A program made the position numbers and the translations under genes. From NCBI RefSeq assembly GCF_003856835.1, contig NZ_CP034145.1:806001-870000 (forward strand): a stretch of DNA of 64,000 nt, given 5' to 3'. The notes beneath the pieces were generated by a model. That model did not search any database. It saw only the letters and a list, made by a program, of their open reading frames with translations, and was not told the origin of the DNA. This DNA comes from Haloplanus aerogenes. Its GTDB lineage: Archaea; Halobacteriota; Halobacteria; Halobacteriales; Haloferacaceae. Below, piece after piece: positions 10,591 through 19,938 of the stretch; the first letter of the stretch is position 1; the number at the start of each line of letters is the position of its first letter.

Positions 10591-11142
10591 GTGGAGACAC
10601 TGGTCCCCCTCCTCGTGCTCGACCTTCCCGGACTCGAGTGGCTGACGCGCCTCGTCGAGACGGCGACGGGATGGTGGGGACTGGTCATCATCTTCGTCTA
10701 CTCCTTCCTCATCGCGTTCGCCCTCCCCGGTGTCAGCGAGGTGGTTCTCCTCGCACCACTGGATCTCGGCCTCTCGACCGAGTTGCGACTGGCGGTGATC
10801 ATCCTCACCTCCGCGGCCGGCAAGGCCGCCGGGAGCGTCTTCGCGTTCCACATCGGGCAGGAGGCCAAGGAGGCGGGACCGATCATCAAGGCGCTCCGGC
10901 GCTCCCGGTTCGACGTGATCGGCTGGTCGGAGCGCCGCACCGTCGAAATCGCGCGTCGGTGGGGGTACGCGGGGCTCGCGCTCGCGCTCTCGGTTCCCTT
11001 TTTCCCCGACACGCTCTCCATCTACGCCTTTGCCGTGCTGGAGGAGGATTACTATCGATTCGCCGCTGCGACGTTCGCCGGGAGCGTCGGGCGGTTGCTG
11101 GTCACGTTGGGGCTGAGTGCGGGCGTGCTGGCGGTGCTGTAG
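10591..11142 (+). CDS. VTT/YqaA-like small multi-pass membrane protein
   Basis: A 183-residue protein with about four hydrophobic segments and a basic cytoplasmic loop (KALRRSRFDVIGWSERR). The FALPGVSEV and SVPFFPDTLSIYAF segments resemble the SNARE-associated (VTT/DedA/YqaA) group, whose members act in membrane lipid handling or are uncharacterised. I place the start at the GTG at 10591, preceded by GGGAGG, because the upstream in-frame ATG would overlap the mfnA end and adds a polar, non-conserved 25 residues. It follows mfnA by 34 bp. Confidence 0.75.
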   Translation: METLVPLLVLDLPGLEWLTRLVETATGWWGLVIIFVYSFLIAFALPGVSEVVLLAPLDLGLSTELRLAVIILTSAAGKAAGSVFAFHIGQEAKEAGPIIKALRRSRFDVIGWSERRTVEIARRWGYAGLALALSVPFFPDTLSIYAFAVLEEDYYRFAAATFAGSVGRLLVTLGLSAGVLAVL

Positions 11143-11169
11143 CCTGCCTCGGTACCGGCCATCTCGCGC

Positions 11170-12609
11170 TCATCCGAATTTGGTGCCACACTTCGGACAG
11201 TACTCTTCCGACGAATGCTGTCGGTGACCACAGACGTCACACTCCTCTTGGATCGCGGTGCCGCACTCCGGACAGTACGGCTCGTCGGTCACGCCGCGCC
11301 CACAGACTGGACACTGTCTGAACAGGGCGGTCCCGCACGCCGCACAGAACTGCTGGTCGCTCTCGACGGCCGCGCCGCAGACGGGGCAGTCGTCGACTTC
11401 GATTTCGATTTCGACTTCGTCTTCCTCTTCGGGTTCGGTCTCCTCCACTTCGGGCTCCGGTTCGGGGACCGACACGGTGTCTCCGGTGAACAGCGCTTCC
11501 TCCGTGGGCACGTCGGGCACGCGTGACTGCTCGACGTACGTCGCGAGCCAGTCCTCGAGCCCGTGACCGACGACGTTTCGGATCGCTGTTTTGAGCTTGC
11601 CGTGAGTCAGCGACCCGTCGACGCGGTTGATCCGTCGGAACACGTCCTCGAACGTCTTCGATCCACCCGTCTCACGACGGATTTTGGCGTCGAGTGCGGC
11701 CGTGACCCGACGGCCTTTGGTGTAGTACGCGTTCGGTGAGGTCCACCGACCCGGATCGACGAGTACCGAGTTGGCGTGCCGGTCGGTTTCGAGATACCTG
11801 TGAAACGCCGAAAACGAGACTCGTCCGTCGAGAAACGTCAGTAACGCGGCGTAGTAGTTCGTCGTTCCCTCGATGAGCCACCGCGTCGACTGGTCCCGGT
11901 CCCACTCTTGACGCGTGTGGACGTACTCGTGTATCCACGTGTTGTTGGCGTGGTCGACGTAACTCGAATCGACCGCCCAGAAACCGTTGACGCCGCTCTG
12001 TAAGCCACCCCAGCCCCAGTTGATGTTCGACGGCGCGACGACGACGATCACCTCGTCGTTCTTGCCGCCCACGTCGAGATTCTCGGCGGCGAAACTCAAC
12101 GACGCGCAGACGTCGGCGAGCGAAGCTCGAAGTGACGCGTTCGTCGGGATCGCTATCCGAAATCGCTGGCCGCCCGCCCGAAACGATTCCTCCCGGTGCG
12201 GCCCGAGATAGACGATACTCCCGTCGGAACTCACGATGCCGTCCTGTCTGATATCGTACTGTCGGTCGAGTTCGACACGTCCGCCGGTGTACTTCCACGA
12301 GGTGTTGATCGGGGGGTATTTGAGTAGCGCCCAGCTTCCCGTGTCGACGAACTCGTATCCGCCGGCGTTCGTCCGGTTCACGTCGTACCGAAACCGAATC
12401 CACGGGTTCTGTGTCGCTCCGTCCCATTCGCACTGGTGTCGCTGTGACTGCGAGAACCCCCGTAACTCCTCCGCACCGAGGTAGTCGGGAAACGAGAGTG
12501 TGATCGACCGCAGATTCGAGTGCAGAGAGAATTCGGCGTAGAGGTGGACGAGGCCTTCGGCTGTAGGATCGAGTTCCGCAGAGAGTTTCTGCGTGAACGT
12601 ACGCGCCAT
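11170..12609 (-). CDS. gluzincin-like metallopeptidase with C-terminal double zinc ribbons
   Basis: A 479-residue protein. The central domain has HEYVH (residues 227-231) followed 15 residues later by WLIEGTTNYY (Glu247), which resembles the M1/M61 gluzincin layout. An acidic linker of EPEPEVEE type (382-406) leads to a C-terminal stretch with about eight CPxCG-type knuckles (Cys408 to Cys474), forming at least two double zinc ribbons. No signal peptide or membrane helix is visible, so it is probably cytoplasmic. The start at 12609 (MARTFTQ) removes a basic upstream extension with no clear role. It is divergent from the membrane protein and the two tubulin-like genes; that placement suggests, but does not prove, a shared pathway. 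Confidence 0.78.
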   Translation of the reverse strand: MARTFTQKLSAELDPTAEGLVHLYAEFSLHSNLRSITLSFPDYLGAEELRGFSQSQRHQCEWDGATQNPWIRFRYDVNRTNAGGYEFVDTGSWALLKYPPINTSWKYTGGRVELDRQYDIRQDGIVSSDGSIVYLGPHREESFRAGGQRFRIAIPTNASLRASLADVCASLSFAAENLDVGGKNDEVIVVVAPSNINWGWGGLQSGVNGFWAVDSSYVDHANNTWIHEYVHTRQEWDRDQSTRWLIEGTTNYYAALLTFLDGRVSFSAFHRYLETDRHANSVLVDPGRWTSPNAYYTKGRRVTAALDAKIRRETGGSKTFEDVFRRINRVDGSLTHGKLKTAIRNVVGHGLEDWLATYVEQSRVPDVPTEEALFTGDTVSVPEPEPEVEETEPEEEDEVEIEIEVDDCPVCGAAVESDQQFCAACGTALFRQCPVCGRGVTDEPYCPECGTAIQEECDVCGHRQHSSEEYCPKCGTKFG

Positions 12610-12813
12610 CGGTATCCTATCACGGCGGGATGTATTTATGTCATGCGATCGGACATACTTGTCTCGGCGTCGACCCGTCATCGTGGTTGCCGATGCGATG
12701 GTTCTCCTACAGACGTATCGAGATTGGAGCGGTCACGTCTTGCGAACTGCGCGTGTTTCTCGGCAGCCTCGTCTGCGGAAAAACACATCAAATAATCTTC
12801 ATACCCTAACGTA

Positions 12814-12822
12814 GATTATAAG
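12814..12822 (+). promoter_or_regulatory. TATA-like box for the bitopic membrane-protein gene
   Basis: An ATTATAAG-type box sits about 30 bp before the ATG at 12851. If transcription starts 25-27 bp downstream, the transcript would begin a few bases before that ATG, which favours 12851 over the upstream GTG at 12824. The surrounding 12760-12825 stretch is clearly more AT-rich than its flanks. Confidence 0.5.
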
Positions 12823-12850
12823 TGTGAAACGTGTGAGCGTTTCAACCACG

Positions 12851-13519
12851 ATGGCCCGATTACCGAACTCACTCAGTCGGACGAGTCAGCTCGCACTGCT
12901 GCTCGTCGTGCTCTTGACCGCAAGTGCCGGCGTCGCCTCGGCAGCGGTTGCCGGTGACTTCACCAGCAGTTACGATGGCTACAACGACGACAGCGATACG
13001 AGCGTCCCCGGGCACGAAATCCAGGTATCGGGCTCACTCGAATTCAGTGGCGAGAACGCAGTCGACGCACGGATCGTCGTCTACTCGTCACAACACACCG
13101 TCCTCGAGGACTCGTCCGTAGAACTGCTCCAGCCCGGAGCATCGTCGGTCGACTTCACCCGGGATTACGTGAACCGAGGCGTTCGGTACTCCGCGGACGA
13201 GGTGCCGTCCGGTACGCGTCTCGAACTCGAATTCGTCGTCTACCCCGTCTCGGGATTGACGCAGTCGGAGCTCACGAGCGCCGAAGTGGTGGTTCGATAC
13301 GACACGCCGGCCGGGGACCAAGAAGAGTCGCGGATGGAAGTTACCACGGCGATGAGCAACACGCCGGCACAGGTGATCAATAGCCAAGGGAACGATCAGC
13401 AAGTCCACATCGCCGTCTGGGTCTTCGCCGGTATCGGGGCGCTCGCCGTGGCGCTCGTCGTTCTCATGGCGCTTTACTCGGTGATCGGTGGTGGCGGCGG
13501 CGGTCCCCCGAAAAGCTGA
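12851..13519 (+). CDS. secreted/bitopic membrane protein upstream of the tubulin-like genes
   Basis: A 222-residue protein I do not recognise. It has a Sec-type signal sequence (hydrophobic core about residues 14-28, ending ASAAVAG), a beta-rich acidic ectodomain of about 150 residues, a single membrane helix (about 188-212) and a very short glycine/proline tail (GGGGGGPPKS). The predicted topology is an outside domain with one anchor. It lies 250 bp before the first tubulin-like gene on the same strand and is divergent from the zinc-ribbon peptidase. It may be a membrane partner or anchor for that system; this is inference from position only. Confidence 0.7.
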   Translation: MARLPNSLSRTSQLALLLVVLLTASAGVASAAVAGDFTSSYDGYNDDSDTSVPGHEIQVSGSLEFSGENAVDARIVVYSSQHTVLEDSSVELLQPGASSVDFTRDYVNRGVRYSADEVPSGTRLELEFVVYPVSGLTQSELTSAEVVVRYDTPAGDQEESRMEVTTAMSNTPAQVINSQGNDQQVHIAVWVFAGIGALAVALVVLMALYSVIGGGGGGPPKS

Positions 13520-13737
13520 GGCGCCGACGGCCCTCGCTCGATCTGTCAGAATTGTGTTCTTCTTCCCGCTCGGACGAGCCAACCGTCGCCGAACCGTAAC
13601 TGTCGCCATGTCGATGTGTCGGGCCATCGGAACCAATTCATTCGGAGCGAGTCCCCGACGAGTCGTCGGCCGGTCTCGAAAAAAGACGTATTAGCTGGTT
13701 GACTCTCTGGTTCTCTCACACCGCTGAACCATCCCGT

Positions 13738-13748
13738 ACAAATAAGTG
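13738..13748 (+). promoter_or_regulatory. TATA-like box for the first tubulin-like gene
   Basis: An ACAAATAAGTG stretch lies about 25-30 bp before the ATG at 13770. It suggests the gene has its own, probably leaderless, promoter in addition to any read-through from the membrane-protein gene. Confidence 0.4.
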
Positions 13749-13769
13749 TATCTCTGGCAAGTAGAAATT

Positions 13770-16547
13770 ATGGGTGCCGAAGACAGCCTGACACATCCGA
13801 CGTACATCATCGGGGTGGGACAAGCGGGGATCAACGTGATGAACACGCTTCACGAAGTGGCCCAGGAGAACGACGACGGGCACAAGTTCCAGTTCGCGGC
13901 GATAGACACCGACGTCGACGCGCTCAGTTCGACGCCGCGGGAAGCGCTCAACTTCCAGCTCGAAATCGAGGACGACTTCATCGACGAGGATCGGGCGAAC
14001 TACCCGTATCTCACGGGCCGGATGAACCTCGAAGACAAGGGGGCACGGCGGCAACGGCCGGTCGGCCGGTACAAACTCGACAACAAGAACGAGTTCGAGA
14101 GCACGTTCGAGCAGATCTGGTCCGAAATCGAGTCACACTACGAGGACCACTCGGCCGATCTGGGGCCGCAACAGGCGTCGTTCGACATCTTTCTGATCCA
14201 CTCGCTCGGCGGCGGGACGGGGAGCGGGACGTTCCCCCTCCTGTTGATGATGTTGGACATGATCGCCGAGGATCTCGACAGTGACTACGTGTACACGGCC
14301 GGGATGGGCGTCGTCCCCGAAATCCCGATGAACGAGGACGGGCAGGGGCCGATTCCGCTTCCCGGCTCGCCGATCTACTACCCGAACGCGCACGCCGCGC
14401 TCCACGACCTCGAGAAGTTCGAACTGCTCGAAATCATCAACAACACGAGCTACGACCGGCACATGCCGAGCGACGTGGTCGAGGAGAACCGCACCCTCGA
14501 ACTCCCGGTGCATTCCTCGCGGCTGCAGGGAGCAGGGCCACGGTCGCACGTCACCCAGTTCTCGCTGGACGGTGGACCGCCGTTCGACGACTACTGGCTG
14601 ATGGGCGTCGACGAGGGGGACATCGACGGTCGGATCGCCGGCCAGACCGGACCGGAGACGTATCGGCAGGAAGTCAATCAGATCATGGCTCGGTCCCTGT
14701 ACGCCATCACGCAGTTCAGCAGTGGCGCGGAAAACTGGACGCAGGGGAAGTCGGTGCTGGGGACCCCCGATCAGGCCGAAGTGTACGTCGCGAACGACGA
14801 GGTGGAGGCGTACGCGGAGCTGAAAGCGGAGAAAGAGGCGAAAGAACGGCGCAAGAACGAGGAGATCCCCGAAGAGATCGAGGAGTTGGAGGCGCAGATC
14901 GAGTCGCTGAAAACGCGGAAGTCGAACCTCAACCTCGACGACATCGACGACGAGGAGCTGATTCGGGAGATTCGGAACTACCTCGGCAAGGAGGGCTTCC
15001 GGAAAGGATCGGCCATCGTCGAGAGCAAGTCACAGTCCGACATCGAGGCGATTCTGGACGAGGTCGCGGACGATTACGACATCGAGGGACAGATCATCGC
15101 GGTCGACGTCCTCGACGAGAAACTGAGTCAGCAGGAAGGGGGCGCACCCGAAGTCGAGGAAGAACACAAGGACATCGTTCAGGACATCTGGTCGACGTAC
15201 AACCTGCAGACGCTTCCGGGTAACAGCGGGATCAAGACGACCACCGGGAAGGCACAGGAAGCGCGAGCGTATCTGGACGACGAGATCAGCGAGTACAAGG
15301 AGATCAAAGAGGAGTGGGACCCGGACCTGCTCGGCCAGATTCAAGATACGCTCCCCCCGCTTATCGGCATCTTCGAGAGCGAGCGGGAGAACGCGGAGGC
15401 GTGGCTCGCTGCCCTCCAGTCCGACTACGACGACCTCGAACGCATCATGGGAACGTGGGGTCGGGTGACGTCGATGCAGCAGGCCATCTCCGACCGGCGG
15501 AGCGACATCCGCAGTCAGATCACGGCCAAGATGAACGAGCTAGAGCAGGAGATCGACTCCCTGCGCGACGAGCAGGACGAATTGGCCGACCAGATTCGAT
15601 CGAAAGAGCGGGAGATGTCGTCGAAAATCGAGACGCTCACGACCGCTCAGACGTCCATGCGGCAGGTCGATCTTCCGCTCGTTCAGTCGGAACTGCGGGA
15701 CATCGACCTCGACCTGGTGCAGAACCACCTCAACAGCCTCGCAGACTACGTCGACGAAGGACTGATCGACGAGACGAAGGTCCGCCGCGCGCTCTCTCAG
15801 CGCATCGACTTCGCCGCTTCGTGGAAGAACAACGTCATCGACGGCGACACCAACAAAACCGAAATTCCGGTGTACGCCGACGACACGGACGAGTTCTGGT
15901 ATCTCTACCACCCGGACAACCGCGAATTGCTCGATCTGATCGACAAAGCGACGGACGCAGACGAGCAGAAGGAACCGGGCGGCGAACTCGAATATCTGGA
16001 CGATCCGTACCGCATCGAGTACGTCACCTTCACCCGTCGGGGGCCGGTGTCGCGGCTCAAACTCTACCAGATGCTCAACAACCTCGCCGACAACGGTCGG
16101 CTCGAACGGCTGGGGGCCCAGTACGAGAACTACCTGCAGGCCTTCGCGTACGTCGAGTGGTACGGCCGAGAGGTGAAAAACGCCTTCGACGCCGACCTGC
16201 GCGTCACCGTTTCCCGTCCACCGGAGATGGACCACACCCGGGTCGACAAGCCGGAGCTCTCGGAAGGCGAACTGAAGAACTTCGTCAAGGTCAGCGGTCT
16301 GGACAGCTACATCTGGCAGGGAATGATGTGGGACGCCTACGAGCCGACGGACCAGCGATTCACGGGGTGGGAGAAGAAACTGCGCCGTGAGGGGATCGGC
16401 TGGAACCAGCTCCAGACGTCGACGCCAGATTCGGATCTGAAGGCGCAGTGGCTCGCCGGACAGGCCGACTGGGAGGATATCGTCGACGCCTACCAGCAGA
16501 ACCTGATCGAGAAGACGGGCATCAAGGTCCAGTTCGAGGACGACTGA
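13770..16547 (+). CDS. tubulin/FtsZ-superfamily protein (Tubulin_2-like), large coiled-coil form
   Basis: A 925-residue protein with an N-terminal tubulin-like GTPase domain. GVGQAG (15-20) fits the first nucleotide loop, DTDVDAL (46-52) the next, and HSLGGGTGSG (144-153) is the tubulin/FtsZ phosphate-binding signature. A long, charged, largely helical middle (about 345-640) has strong coiled-coil character (EELEAQIESL; LEQEIDSLRDEQDEL). The C-terminal part holds DDPYRIEYV and YVEWYGREV motifs, shared with the next gene, plus about 100 extra residues. It is much longer than FtsZ or CetZ (350-400) and fits the divergent FtsZ-like family described by Makarova and Koonin (2010). A role in membrane remodelling is inferred, not shown. 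The ATG at 13770 gives MGAEDSLTHP directly before the first strand. Confidence 0.85.
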   Translation: MGAEDSLTHPTYIIGVGQAGINVMNTLHEVAQENDDGHKFQFAAIDTDVDALSSTPREALNFQLEIEDDFIDEDRANYPYLTGRMNLEDKGARRQRPVGRYKLDNKNEFESTFEQIWSEIESHYEDHSADLGPQQASFDIFLIHSLGGGTGSGTFPLLLMMLDMIAEDLDSDYVYTAGMGVVPEIPMNEDGQGPIPLPGSPIYYPNAHAALHDLEKFELLEIINNTSYDRHMPSDVVEENRTLELPVHSSRLQGAGPRSHVTQFSLDGGPPFDDYWLMGVDEGDIDGRIAGQTGPETYRQEVNQIMARSLYAITQFSSGAENWTQGKSVLGTPDQAEVYVANDEVEAYAELKAEKEAKERRKNEEIPEEIEELEAQIESLKTRKSNLNLDDIDDEELIREIRNYLGKEGFRKGSAIVESKSQSDIEAILDEVADDYDIEGQIIAVDVLDEKLSQQEGGAPEVEEEHKDIVQDIWSTYNLQTLPGNSGIKTTTGKAQEARAYLDDEISEYKEIKEEWDPDLLGQIQDTLPPLIGIFESERENAEAWLAALQSDYDDLERIMGTWGRVTSMQQAISDRRSDIRSQITAKMNELEQEIDSLRDEQDELADQIRSKEREMSSKIETLTTAQTSMRQVDLPLVQSELRDIDLDLVQNHLNSLADYVDEGLIDETKVRRALSQRIDFAASWKNNVIDGDTNKTEIPVYADDTDEFWYLYHPDNRELLDLIDKATDADEQKEPGGELEYLDDPYRIEYVTFTRRGPVSRLKLYQMLNNLADNGRLERLGAQYENYLQAFAYVEWYGREVKNAFDADLRVTVSRPPEMDHTRVDKPELSEGELKNFVKVSGLDSYIWQGMMWDAYEPTDQRFTGWEKKLRREGIGWNQLQTSTPDSDLKAQWLAGQADWEDIVDAYQQNLIEKTGIKVQFEDD

Positions 16548-16589
16548 GCCGTCGGGGGTGTGTCGACCCCCCGTCGTCCGGCGGAAACG

Positions 16590-16597
16590 CTAAATGT
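16590..16597 (+). promoter_or_regulatory. possible TATA-like box for the second tubulin-like gene
   Basis: A CTAAATG stretch in the 71-bp gap between the two tubulin-like genes lies about 25 bp before the ATG at 16619. It would allow separate leaderless expression of the second gene. The match is weak. Confidence 0.3.
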
Positions 16598-16618
16598 CGC
16601 CTCCGAAACAGTGTTCGT

Positions 16619-18931
16619 ATGCCCGGGGTTCCGACCTTCGTCGTCGGCGCCGGTGCGGCGGGGGTCGACGTCGTGTGTCGGCTGGCCGCCCGCGGCGAGC
16701 GACGTGGCGCCACCCATCTCGGCTATCTCGCCGTCGATTCCGATCCCGAGACGCTCGATCGGGCCGCGGACGCGGTGCCGACGCTCCACCTCGCGAGCGA
16801 TTCGGGCGTCGTCGGCGACGGGCGCGACGCCTATCCGTATCTCGCGACCGACGTGACGATCCCCGACGCGGGCGCGAACCGGCTGCGACACGTCGGCCGA
16901 TACAAACTGGACAACGCCGTCTCGCCAGATTTCCTGACCCACTACAACGACATCCGGGACCGGGTGACGGCGTTCTACGACGATCGACAGGCGAGTCTGG
17001 ACGCCCGGCTCGGCCGATACAACCTCGTCGTCGTCAGCTCCCTCGCAGGGGGTACTGGAAGCGGTGTCTTCCCGCTCCTCACGGCGCTGTTGACCCACGT
17101 GGCGACCCACTCGCTGGCAGACGCCGACGTGCGTCTGCTCGGTGTCGGTATCGTCCCGCCGTTACACATCGATCCCACGTACAGCGCCCCCCCCGTCGAA
17201 CCGGTCGCGTATCCGAACACGTACGGCGCGCTCCGGAACCTCGCGACGCTTCTCGACGGGTCGGTTCGCATCCCCACGTACGCCATGTCGGACTCGCTGG
17301 TGGAGACGACCGACGACGACAGCGAACGGCCGATTTCCTTCGAACTGGACGACGCCCCGTTCGATAGCTACTGGCTCGTGGGCACGGACCACGCGGACGA
17401 CAGCCACTCCCCCGAGACGGTCGCCGAGATGGTCGCGGACGCGCTGTACGCGACGACCGCGTACGTCTCCCCGACACACCGCGCCTCGCGTCCGGCACCG
17501 ATCTCGCCGCTTGGCACGATCGGCTACGCCGCCGTCGCGGTCCCCCATCGGTCGCTACGCCGGTTTTGCGAGCGAAAACGCGACCGCGCTCGTGCGAAAT
17601 CGCGCCTCGAGGAGATGGTCGCCCCGAAAATCGAGGAGCGACGAAACACGCGTGACGATCTGTCGTCGATACTGAACGATGTGGCCGACGAGTCGGCGTC
17701 GGCACGTATCGAGCGGCTCGAACGGGTTCGCGACCGCCTCGACGGACGGACCGATCTCGATGCGGGATTCGTGACCGAAAACGAGCCGCGGGAGATCGGT
17801 GAGGTACTCGAAACCATCGCGACCGACGAGGATCTGGAGTCGTGTCTGGCCGCCGCAAGAGCCGTCGAGTGGGCCCTCGCGGACGGTCCCGTTGGAACCG
17901 ACCTCCGGCAGGACCTCGAACGGACGTGGACGGAGATTCACGACAGCTACGAATTTCCGGTCGTCGCCGACGGTGTCGGCGATGCGGCACCGCTCGCTCG
18001 CCGACTCGACGCTCTCCATCGAGGGCTGACCGACCGTCTCGACTACTTCCAGGGGGACTACACGGAGACCGATCCGAGCGTTCGTGACATCTTCCCACCC
18101 ACCCACGACCTCTTCACCAGCGAGCGTGAACGGCTCGCGCAGTTGATCGACCGTCTCGACGCGGACGTGGATCGGGTTTCGACGGCTATCGACCGCCTCG
18201 ACACCCTTCGCGCCGCCGAGTCGCTCGTGGACGAGTACGTACAGGCCGCCCGCGAAGAGATTCACTCTCGTCTCGACGACGTGAAAGCGGAGCTCGCGCT
18301 CTTCCGGCGCGAGCGTGACGATCTCACGGACCGGATTCGGGAACTCGACCGCGAGGTGGCCGATCTGCGTGACTCGCTCACTCAGCCGTCGGACGACGGC
18401 CCGGTCTTTTGGCTCCCGCTCGACTGGGAGGCGCTCGACGGTCTGACGCTCGACGACGTGGATCGGCACCTGACGAGCCTCGACGACTACGCGGACCGTG
18501 ATCTCCTCGCCGTCGACGATCGGGGCATCGAGCGAATCCTCCAGCGTGGCTACGACTACAGTCGGGCGTGGCCCGACGGCATCGCGCGACACGACGTGTC
18601 GGTGTCGTCCGCGGCGTCCCACGACGACGTGGTGGTTCTCTCCCACCGTGCCAACACCGCTCGGACGGCGGCGTTCGTCGAATCGCTGACGGGACCGGAC
18701 ACGCTCTACACTGCCGGCGACGGCTCGTACACGCACACTGACGACCCCTATCGGATCGAATTCGTGTCGCGGTCTCACGGCGGAACGTCCGACTCCCTCG
18801 CTGGTTTCCAGCGGTTAGCCGAGATGGCCCAAGACGGAACGCTCGACGCGATGGCGGGGCCGTATCGGGATTTCCGGCGAGCGCTCGCCTATCCCGAGTG
18901 GTACGACGAGTCCGTTCGCGAGTCGTTCTAG
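16619..18931 (+). CDS. second tubulin/FtsZ-superfamily protein, divergent paralogue
   Basis: A 770-residue paralogue of the preceding protein. GAGAAG (10-15), AVDSDPETL (38-46) and SSLAGGTGSG (140-149) align with the nucleotide loops, with Ala in place of the first Gly of the GGGTGSG box. The PYL...RHVGRYKLDN block (73-99) and the late DDPYRIEF and YPEWYDESV motifs are shared. The middle is again charged and helical (about 320-640). It ends about 100 residues earlier than its partner, right after the EWY motif. It starts 71 bp after the partner. Tandem unequal paralogues suggest a hetero-polymer or a regulator/polymer pair. The ATG at 16619 was chosen because upstream in-frame codons overlap the end of the partner. 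Confidence 0.82.
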   Translation: MPGVPTFVVGAGAAGVDVVCRLAARGERRGATHLGYLAVDSDPETLDRAADAVPTLHLASDSGVVGDGRDAYPYLATDVTIPDAGANRLRHVGRYKLDNAVSPDFLTHYNDIRDRVTAFYDDRQASLDARLGRYNLVVVSSLAGGTGSGVFPLLTALLTHVATHSLADADVRLLGVGIVPPLHIDPTYSAPPVEPVAYPNTYGALRNLATLLDGSVRIPTYAMSDSLVETTDDDSERPISFELDDAPFDSYWLVGTDHADDSHSPETVAEMVADALYATTAYVSPTHRASRPAPISPLGTIGYAAVAVPHRSLRRFCERKRDRARAKSRLEEMVAPKIEERRNTRDDLSSILNDVADESASARIERLERVRDRLDGRTDLDAGFVTENEPREIGEVLETIATDEDLESCLAAARAVEWALADGPVGTDLRQDLERTWTEIHDSYEFPVVADGVGDAAPLARRLDALHRGLTDRLDYFQGDYTETDPSVRDIFPPTHDLFTSERERLAQLIDRLDADVDRVSTAIDRLDTLRAAESLVDEYVQAAREEIHSRLDDVKAELALFRRERDDLTDRIRELDREVADLRDSLTQPSDDGPVFWLPLDWEALDGLTLDDVDRHLTSLDDYADRDLLAVDDRGIERILQRGYDYSRAWPDGIARHDVSVSSAASHDDVVVLSHRANTARTAAFVESLTGPDTLYTAGDGSYTHTDDPYRIEFVSRSHGGTSDSLAGFQRLAEMAQDGTLDAMAGPYRDFRRALAYPEWYDESVRESF

Positions 18932-18966
18932 TGCGTCGGATGCCGTGTCTCGTCGGAGTCGTCGCC

Positions 18967-19938
18967 CTACTGTAGCGCCTCGGGCGGCCCGCCCGGTAAC
19001 CGGTCCCGGTCGTGGCCCTCCGTGAAGTCGATGTCGGGGCCGGTCGGCACCAGTCGTTTGGGGTTCAGGTCGGCGTGGCTCACGTAGTAGTGGCGGACGA
19101 TGTGGTCCATATTCACGGTGCGCTCGATTCCGGGCGTGGTGTAGAGGTCCTTCGTGTACTCCCAGAGGTTGTCGTACTCGTGGATGGCCCGGCGGTTACA
19201 TTTGAAATGGGTGTGGTAGACGTGATCGAACCGCACCAACGTCGCGAACATAGCGAGGTCGGCCTCGGTGAGTCGGTCGCCCGCGAGGTAGCGCTGGTCC
19301 GCGAGCAGGTCGTCGTAGTGATCCAGCGCGTCGAAGAGGTCGTCGACGGCACGGTCGTAGGCCCCCTGTGACTCCGCGAAGCCGGCGCGATAGACGCCGT
19401 TGTTGATTGGCTCGTAGATGTCGTCGATCAGCCGATCAACCTCGTCGCGATAGCCCTCCGGGTAGAGGTCCACGTCGCGGGTGGCGAGTTCGTGGCCTGC
19501 CACGTCCAGCATTCGCATGATCTCCTCGGATTCGTTGTTGACGATACGCTCCGTCTCGCGGTCCCAGAGGACGGGCACGGTCGGCCGCCCGGTCACGTCG
19601 GGGTCGGCGCGGACGTAGAGTTCGCGCAGGTAGTCGGCACCGTACAGGGGGTCGGGATGCGCGTCCGAGAACTCCCAGCCCTCGCCGTAGCGCTCGGGTT
19701 GGACGATCGAGAGCGAGATAGCGTCGTCCAGCCCTTTGAGCGCGCGCGTCATGGCGACGCGGTGGGCCCACGGACACGCCCGCGAGATGTAGATGTGGTA
19801 GCGGCCGGCCTCGACGGGGAAGTCACCGTCCGGGCCGATCCGGTCGCGGAACGCTTGCTCCTGCCGCTGGAACTCGCCCTCGTCGTCCGTCTCCAGATCG
19901 GCATCTGCGACCCACTCGCCCTCGACGAGTCGACTCAC
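18967..19938 (-). CDS. glutathione S-transferase family protein (glutathionyl-hydroquinone reductase-like)
   Basis: About 323 residues. The thioredoxin-like N-terminal domain has RACPWAHR with a CPWA active-site motif, and the C-terminal helical GST domain follows ([32 protein letters not shown]). The CPWA motif and the length match the Xi-class/YqjG (ECM4) group, which reduces glutathionyl-hydroquinones. Haloarchaea generally use gamma-glutamylcysteine, so the physiological thiol may differ. I chose the GTG at 19938 (read as MSRLVEGEW) because the open frame upstream (to a TTG at 20007) is not conserved in the family. It is divergent from thi4. Confidence 0.88.

Follow-up and report, generated by a model that had tools for sequence, protein, structure and literature searches.

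A four-gene haloarchaeal module of FtsZl1-family tubulins, a bitopic membrane protein and a zinc-ribbon peptidase

What do two long tubulin-like proteins do beside a small membrane protein and a peptidase in a haloarchaeon, and do their genes belong together? The locus that raises this question lies in a stretch of 64,000 nucleotides of Haloplanus aerogenes (contig NZ_CP034145.1, positions 806,001 to 870,000; the window), in which an initial annotation had described four adjacent open reading frames as one system. All four are present, with the tubulins, here called TubA and TubB, at the 925 and 770 amino acids originally given; the peptidase and bitopic genes also stand, although with revised starts. 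The evidence set out below indicates that the module is most likely a compact, horizontally transferred accessory unit.

The four genes are the sole contents of a 7.8-kb segment (11143..18966, no strand assigned) lying between two convergent genes, one encoding a VTT-domain protein (end at 11142) and the other a GST-like protein (end at 18967). These flanking genes abut end to end in six of the seven congeneric genomes compared, and because the segment between them holds exactly four genes, the four were inserted as one unit. The GC content of third codon positions is 0.75-0.85 in the insert as against 0.87-0.91 in its flanks, and a TubA match is absent from the 11 other genomes of the genus. 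Neither an integrase nor a significant terminal repeat was found at the insert; a 7-bp direct repeat at its ends was rejected as a target-site duplication, since 362 of 498 random pairs have one at least that long and chance accounts for it. Viral contigs scanned with TubA yielded zero matches, a phage search gave a single weak match to a 9.8-kb faecal record, and a plasmid search returned partial relatives only, approximately 25-30% identical. In the seventh congeneric genome the VTT/GST junction is occupied by about 2.2 kb of other sequence (L110:7500-9675), and the junction may be a recurrent insertion site.

Scanning named genomes with an alignment of the peptidase revealed six related loci, in Haloarcula sebkhae, Haloarcula japonica, Halolamina pelagica, Haloferax marinum, Natronomonas sp. 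CBA1123 and Natronomonas gomsonensis; several of the Haloarcula and Halolamina genes were missed by codon-based gene calling and were taken from lists of open reading frames. A homologue of the bitopic gene and a TubA-type tubulin gene lie beside the peptidase gene in all six, and with the window included the three genes are found together in seven genomes despite rearrangement. Gene order varies between modules, the N. gomsonensis module sitting at a different site, between dnaK and dnaJ, and so does the number of tubulins (two in Haloarcula and Halolamina, three in Haloferax, one in Natronomonas). Among 394 genomes of the order, close orthologues of the peptidase (identity of 47% or more) and strong TubA matches (E below 1e-65) occurred in the same 6 genomes with no exception. 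Linkage in six other genomes and insertion as one unit bear out the proposal of a single system. The initial annotation had made its case depend on two observations, tubulin-fold similarity and conserved linkage; both were sought, and both were found.

Two of these loci have features of their own. In Halolamina pelagica the bitopic gene and TubB are separated by a TnpA/TnpB insertion element (L044:8011-10595) and the bitopic gene contains one in-frame stop, TGA; this module is possibly decaying. The Haloferax marinum module, with its three Tubulin_2 genes (L062:245-14806), adjoins a gene for a family GH31 glycosidase.

TubA (13770..16547, plus strand) and TubB (16619..18931, plus strand) belong to the FtsZl1 family, Tubulin_2 in Pfam (PF13809). 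Their scores of 62.2 and 78.9 bits both exceed the curated cut-off of 27 bits, and the match of TubA to PF00091 (40 bits) also passes its cut-off. The two align with 27% identity over 815 columns (BLASTP, E 4e-77), the last ~115 residues of TubA having no counterpart in TubB; on this sequence evidence they are tandem paralogues, and the 71-bp gap between the genes suggests one operon. The TGSG phosphate loop had been placed near residue 146; the T4 loop follows the FtsZl1 pattern GGGTG(S/T)G, as GGGTGSG in TubA (GGTGSG at residues 148-153) and, with the first Gly replaced, as AGGTGSG in TubB (GGTGSG at 144-149). The T1 loop reads GVGQAG in TubA and GAGAAG in TubB. Loops T1, T2 and T4 and the T6 Asn are conserved across relatives, and binding of guanosine triphosphate (GTP) is likely.

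A structural model of TubA, built with sequences of the window and related loci as its only input, reached a pLDDT (predicted local distance difference test) of 81. Foldseek matched it to structures of CetZ2, FtsZ and tubulin (best E 6e-8, probability 1.00), with CetZ2 of Haloferax volcanii on top; no tubulin turned up when solved structures were searched by plain sequence, the likeness being found by fold comparison alone. In the model, a tubulin-like part (residues ~1-340) is followed by long helices (342-385 and 532-624), in keeping with the coiled-coil regions noted earlier, and then by an alpha-helical C-terminal part. The tubulins also matched KIF21A, OmpH and others in Pfam and SMC/Rad50 in NCBIfam; these matches fall in the coiled coil and were disregarded. 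What is said of TubB derives from its alignment with TubA and from Pfam. The assignment of both proteins to the divergent FtsZ-like family of Makarova and Koonin is thus sustained by the profile search and the TubA fold comparison. Five further FtsZ/CetZ-type genes lie elsewhere in the genome, and TubA and TubB are therefore additional to them.

The second tubulin has a history of its own. In a tree, all module tubulins form one clade (100/100) except the TubB of Haloarcula, Halolamina and Haloferax, which make up a separate clade (100/100) outside it, while the window TubB lies inside the TubA clade on a long branch. Because these TubB proteins fall in separate clades, the phylogeny indicates that a second subunit was acquired independently at least twice, and orthology of the window TubB to the second tubulin of Haloarcula, considered as a candidate, is ruled out. 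Repeated acquisition is what one would expect were a second, non-identical tubulin of use.

The bitopic membrane protein (12851..13519, plus strand, 222 residues) was recognised from its sequence, its hydropathy and its homology to neighbours of other tubulin genes. It has an N-terminal hydrophobic, signal-like segment, an ectodomain that looks rich in beta structure, a C-terminal transmembrane (TM) helix and a short tail; judged from orthologues, its start is most likely the ATG at 12851, a GTG at 12824 offering a longer alternative. In hhalign (probability 97.3%, E 2.7e-11) it proved homologous to membrane proteins whose genes neighbour other haloarchaeal Tubulin_2 genes, and a profile combining both groups was used to survey 47 genomes. 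That profile, 11 of whose 12 rows were drawn from the positive loci and so favour positives, gave a strong match (E below 1e-50) in 17 of them; six positive genomes contributed no row, three of these being near-copies of rows. All 17 matches adjoin, or sit within 2.5 kb of, a gene for a shorter-class Tubulin_2 protein, and every intact shorter-class gene surveyed has a bitopic neighbour (17 of 17 genomes). The other 30 genomes, some with the long class only, gave nothing better than 1e-6, an absence that the choice of rows leaves unexplained. In four gene pairs the tubulin and bitopic genes overlap by 4 bp. Because of this overlap and the invariable linkage, the constant pair in haloarchaea is the tubulin and the bitopic protein; other genes vary.

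The variable neighbours of the pair include genes for vWA, HSP70 and GrpE proteins or for kinases with FHA domains. Shorter-class tubulins lie near vWA, HSP70-like and GrpE genes in L042 and L046, the HSP70-like protein of L042 having a zinc-finger-like tail. One stretch (L043:1464-13178) brings together a signal-less relative of the peptidase, two FHA kinases, a vWA protein, a Tubulin_2 protein and a bitopic gene, and it links the window module with FtsZl1 systems as published. Long-class tubulins (1040-1190 amino acids) adjoin multi-TM proteins, one of which has a weak match to DO-GTPase2; in L045, L047, L051 and L058 the tubulin gene (about 1070-1170 amino acids) is in each case followed by one for a multi-TM protein. 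A Tubulin_2-like reading frame without a bitopic partner (L056:7646-10006) has a degenerate phosphate loop, GGGIGGG, and was left out of the linkage count.

The fourth gene (11170..12609, minus strand) encodes a predicted cytosolic M61/M1-like metallopeptidase of 479 residues. Its start, initially placed at 12681 (503 residues), is most likely the Met at 12609, because orthologues begin M[AS]RTFTQKLSAELD. The description of a gluzincin-like enzyme with zinc ribbons holds up well: an HExxH motif at 227-231 is followed by Glu247 (His227, Glu228, His231 and Glu247 are invariant in 14 aligned proteins), six C-terminal CxxC motifs make up three zinc ribbons, with the DZR profile above its cut-off, and a model of pLDDT 80 resembles M61 (glycyl aminopeptidase) and M1 peptidases in Foldseek at E 1e-13. 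The enzyme differs from those families in its three ribbons, its lack of a signal peptide and its score against Pfam M61 (PF05299), which at 15.7 bits is below the cut-off of 22. Of the 394 genomes, 300 encode related proteins, and the paralogues inspected have hydrophobic, signal-like stretches at the N terminus and a PGF-TM-Arg end at the C terminus, which we take to be PGF-CTERM, the kind known for surface anchoring. The module peptidase, unlike them, has neither. Given the loss of signal and anchor and the presence of three zinc ribbons, it is probably now cytosolic, an offshoot of a common secreted haloarchaeal family. A signal-less relative with C-terminal CxxC motifs is also encoded directly downstream of a pair of ABC transporter genes (L115:8571-10436), adjacent to no tubulin.

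How far is such a system already known? The FtsZl1 family was described in 2010 by Makarova and Koonin from a haloarchaeal founder, Huta_2051, and its systems were predicted to act in membrane remodelling (PMC2875224). The window module shares with those systems the tubulin family, membrane-associated partners and the succession of an N-terminal GTPase-like part, a coiled coil and an alpha-helical C-terminal part, seen in TubA by model and in TubB by alignment only. Their characteristic context, a linked vWA gene and often a kinase or GTPase, is missing from the four genes, as are OmpA partners; the window has instead the bitopic protein, the zinc-ribbon peptidase and two tubulins. Kaur et al. 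(2020) placed tubulins linked to vWA, GTPase and HSP70 genes in predicted conflict systems, and protection against invaders by the tubulin/HSP70/double-GTPase systems is a prediction there too (PMC7159879). Coiled-coil tubulins, sometimes encoded by two genes, membrane proteins with outside domains, and zinc ribbons are common to those systems and ours, and peptidases occur in related ones, the M61/M1-like enzyme of the window being of a different kind (PMC7159879). The window module differs in being haloarchaeal and in having no double-GTPase (DO-GTPase) or GAP1 gene among its four. Haloarchaeal CetZ and FtsZ share the fold of the N-terminal part of TubA; TubA and TubB are ~15% identical to them, two to three times longer and encoded in a mobile operon; the T7 synergy loop of FtsZ, CetZ and tubulin proper is not recognisable, and their helix H8 is absent from the TubA model. 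In sum, earlier papers already cover the tubulin family, its link with membranes and its inclusion among predicted conflict systems. The available portions of PMC2875224, PMC7159879, PMC9871819 and PMC9856176 were found to mention neither strict pairing with one bitopic family nor a cytosolic zinc-ribbon peptidase, a clean insertion or second tubulins recruited repeatedly.

We suggest, with a probability of roughly 0.45, that the module makes a membrane-tethered, GTP-controlled assembly with a peptidase as switch or effector, and that it serves conflict or stress slightly more probably than remodelling. The bitopic protein would sit in the cytoplasmic membrane, its ectodomain outside and its short tail inside, and would recruit cytosolic Tubulin_2 subunits. 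TubA and TubB would bind GTP through the conserved T1-T6 loops and may assemble, alone or together, into a scaffold by tubulin-like contacts and their long coiled coils; once this forms, the metallopeptidase could cleave a module protein or a target of host or invader. The purpose would be to respond at the membrane, when induced, to stress or to invaders. A bolder version, in which the module is a transferable archaeal membrane machine whose paired non-identical tubulins, the second recruited more than once, dock on the bitopic protein and fire the peptidase against, for example, viruses or envelope stress, strikes us as unlikely.

Several observations weigh against this proposal. The T7 motif after H7 is not recognisable and H8 is absent from the TubA model, so that hydrolysis and classical polymerisation are uncertain; in the 2010 description of FtsZl1, too, counterparts of T6-H7 could not be confidently identified (PMC2875224). 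A second tubulin is not essential, Natronomonas having one only, and the peptidase might act outside the four-gene system. No defence genes adjoin the window module, PADLOC defence profiles gave coiled-coil matches only, which we judge meaningless, and literature searches found no experimental function for FtsZl1/Tubulin_2; the initial annotation, too, knew of none for this gene set. The missing T7 and H8 would also suit nucleotide-binding scaffolds that never form filaments and merely join the membrane protein to the peptidase through coiled coils, an option that Makarova and Koonin likewise left open (PMC2875224). We consider this quite improbable, as the T1-T6 loops are conserved, the tubulin-like part is kept entire, and second tubulins have been recruited repeatedly.

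It is quite possible, by comparison, that this is an FtsZl1-type remodelling or vesicle machine with no conflict role, in which filaments anchored by the bitopic protein would cause the membrane to bend or bud or would organise the cell surface, with the peptidase responsible for the maturation of envelope proteins. Such a role was predicted for the family (PMC2875224) and would fit a constant membrane partner and a peptidase derived from a surface-protein family; yet the peptidase has lost its signal and surface anchor, and a module that is rare (6 of 394 genomes) and transferred is unlike a housekeeping function. Conflict or stress is slightly favoured over housekeeping remodelling because the module is patchily distributed and was transferred as one unit, and because published work associates such tubulins with predicted conflict systems. 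Some plasmids are segregated by tubulin-family GTPases, and the module is on mobile DNA, which might recall a TubZ/RepX-like segregation system of an integrated or plasmid element. That is highly improbable for a chromosomal module whose partner is a membrane protein and whose insert has no DNA-binding adaptor, integrase, replication gene or centromere-like repeat. There is a similarly slim chance that four unrelated genes gathered by accident around an independent tubulin pair; gene order and tubulin number do differ among modules, and the peptidase comes from a large family, but in seven genomes rearrangement has not parted the peptidase, bitopic and TubA genes, and the peptidase orthologue and TubA always co-occur among the 394.

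A membrane role for FtsZl1/Tubulin_2 has been predicted for 16 years, and the module described here narrows the system to four genes, with the bitopic protein as constant partner and likely membrane link. Nature supplies versions with one, two or three tubulins. One of them resides in Haloferax marinum, and as its relative Haloferax volcanii is genetically tractable, the prediction of a membrane-tethered, GTP-controlled assembly becomes directly testable. If that prediction is true, a transferable tubulin-based machine would be added to archaeal biology.

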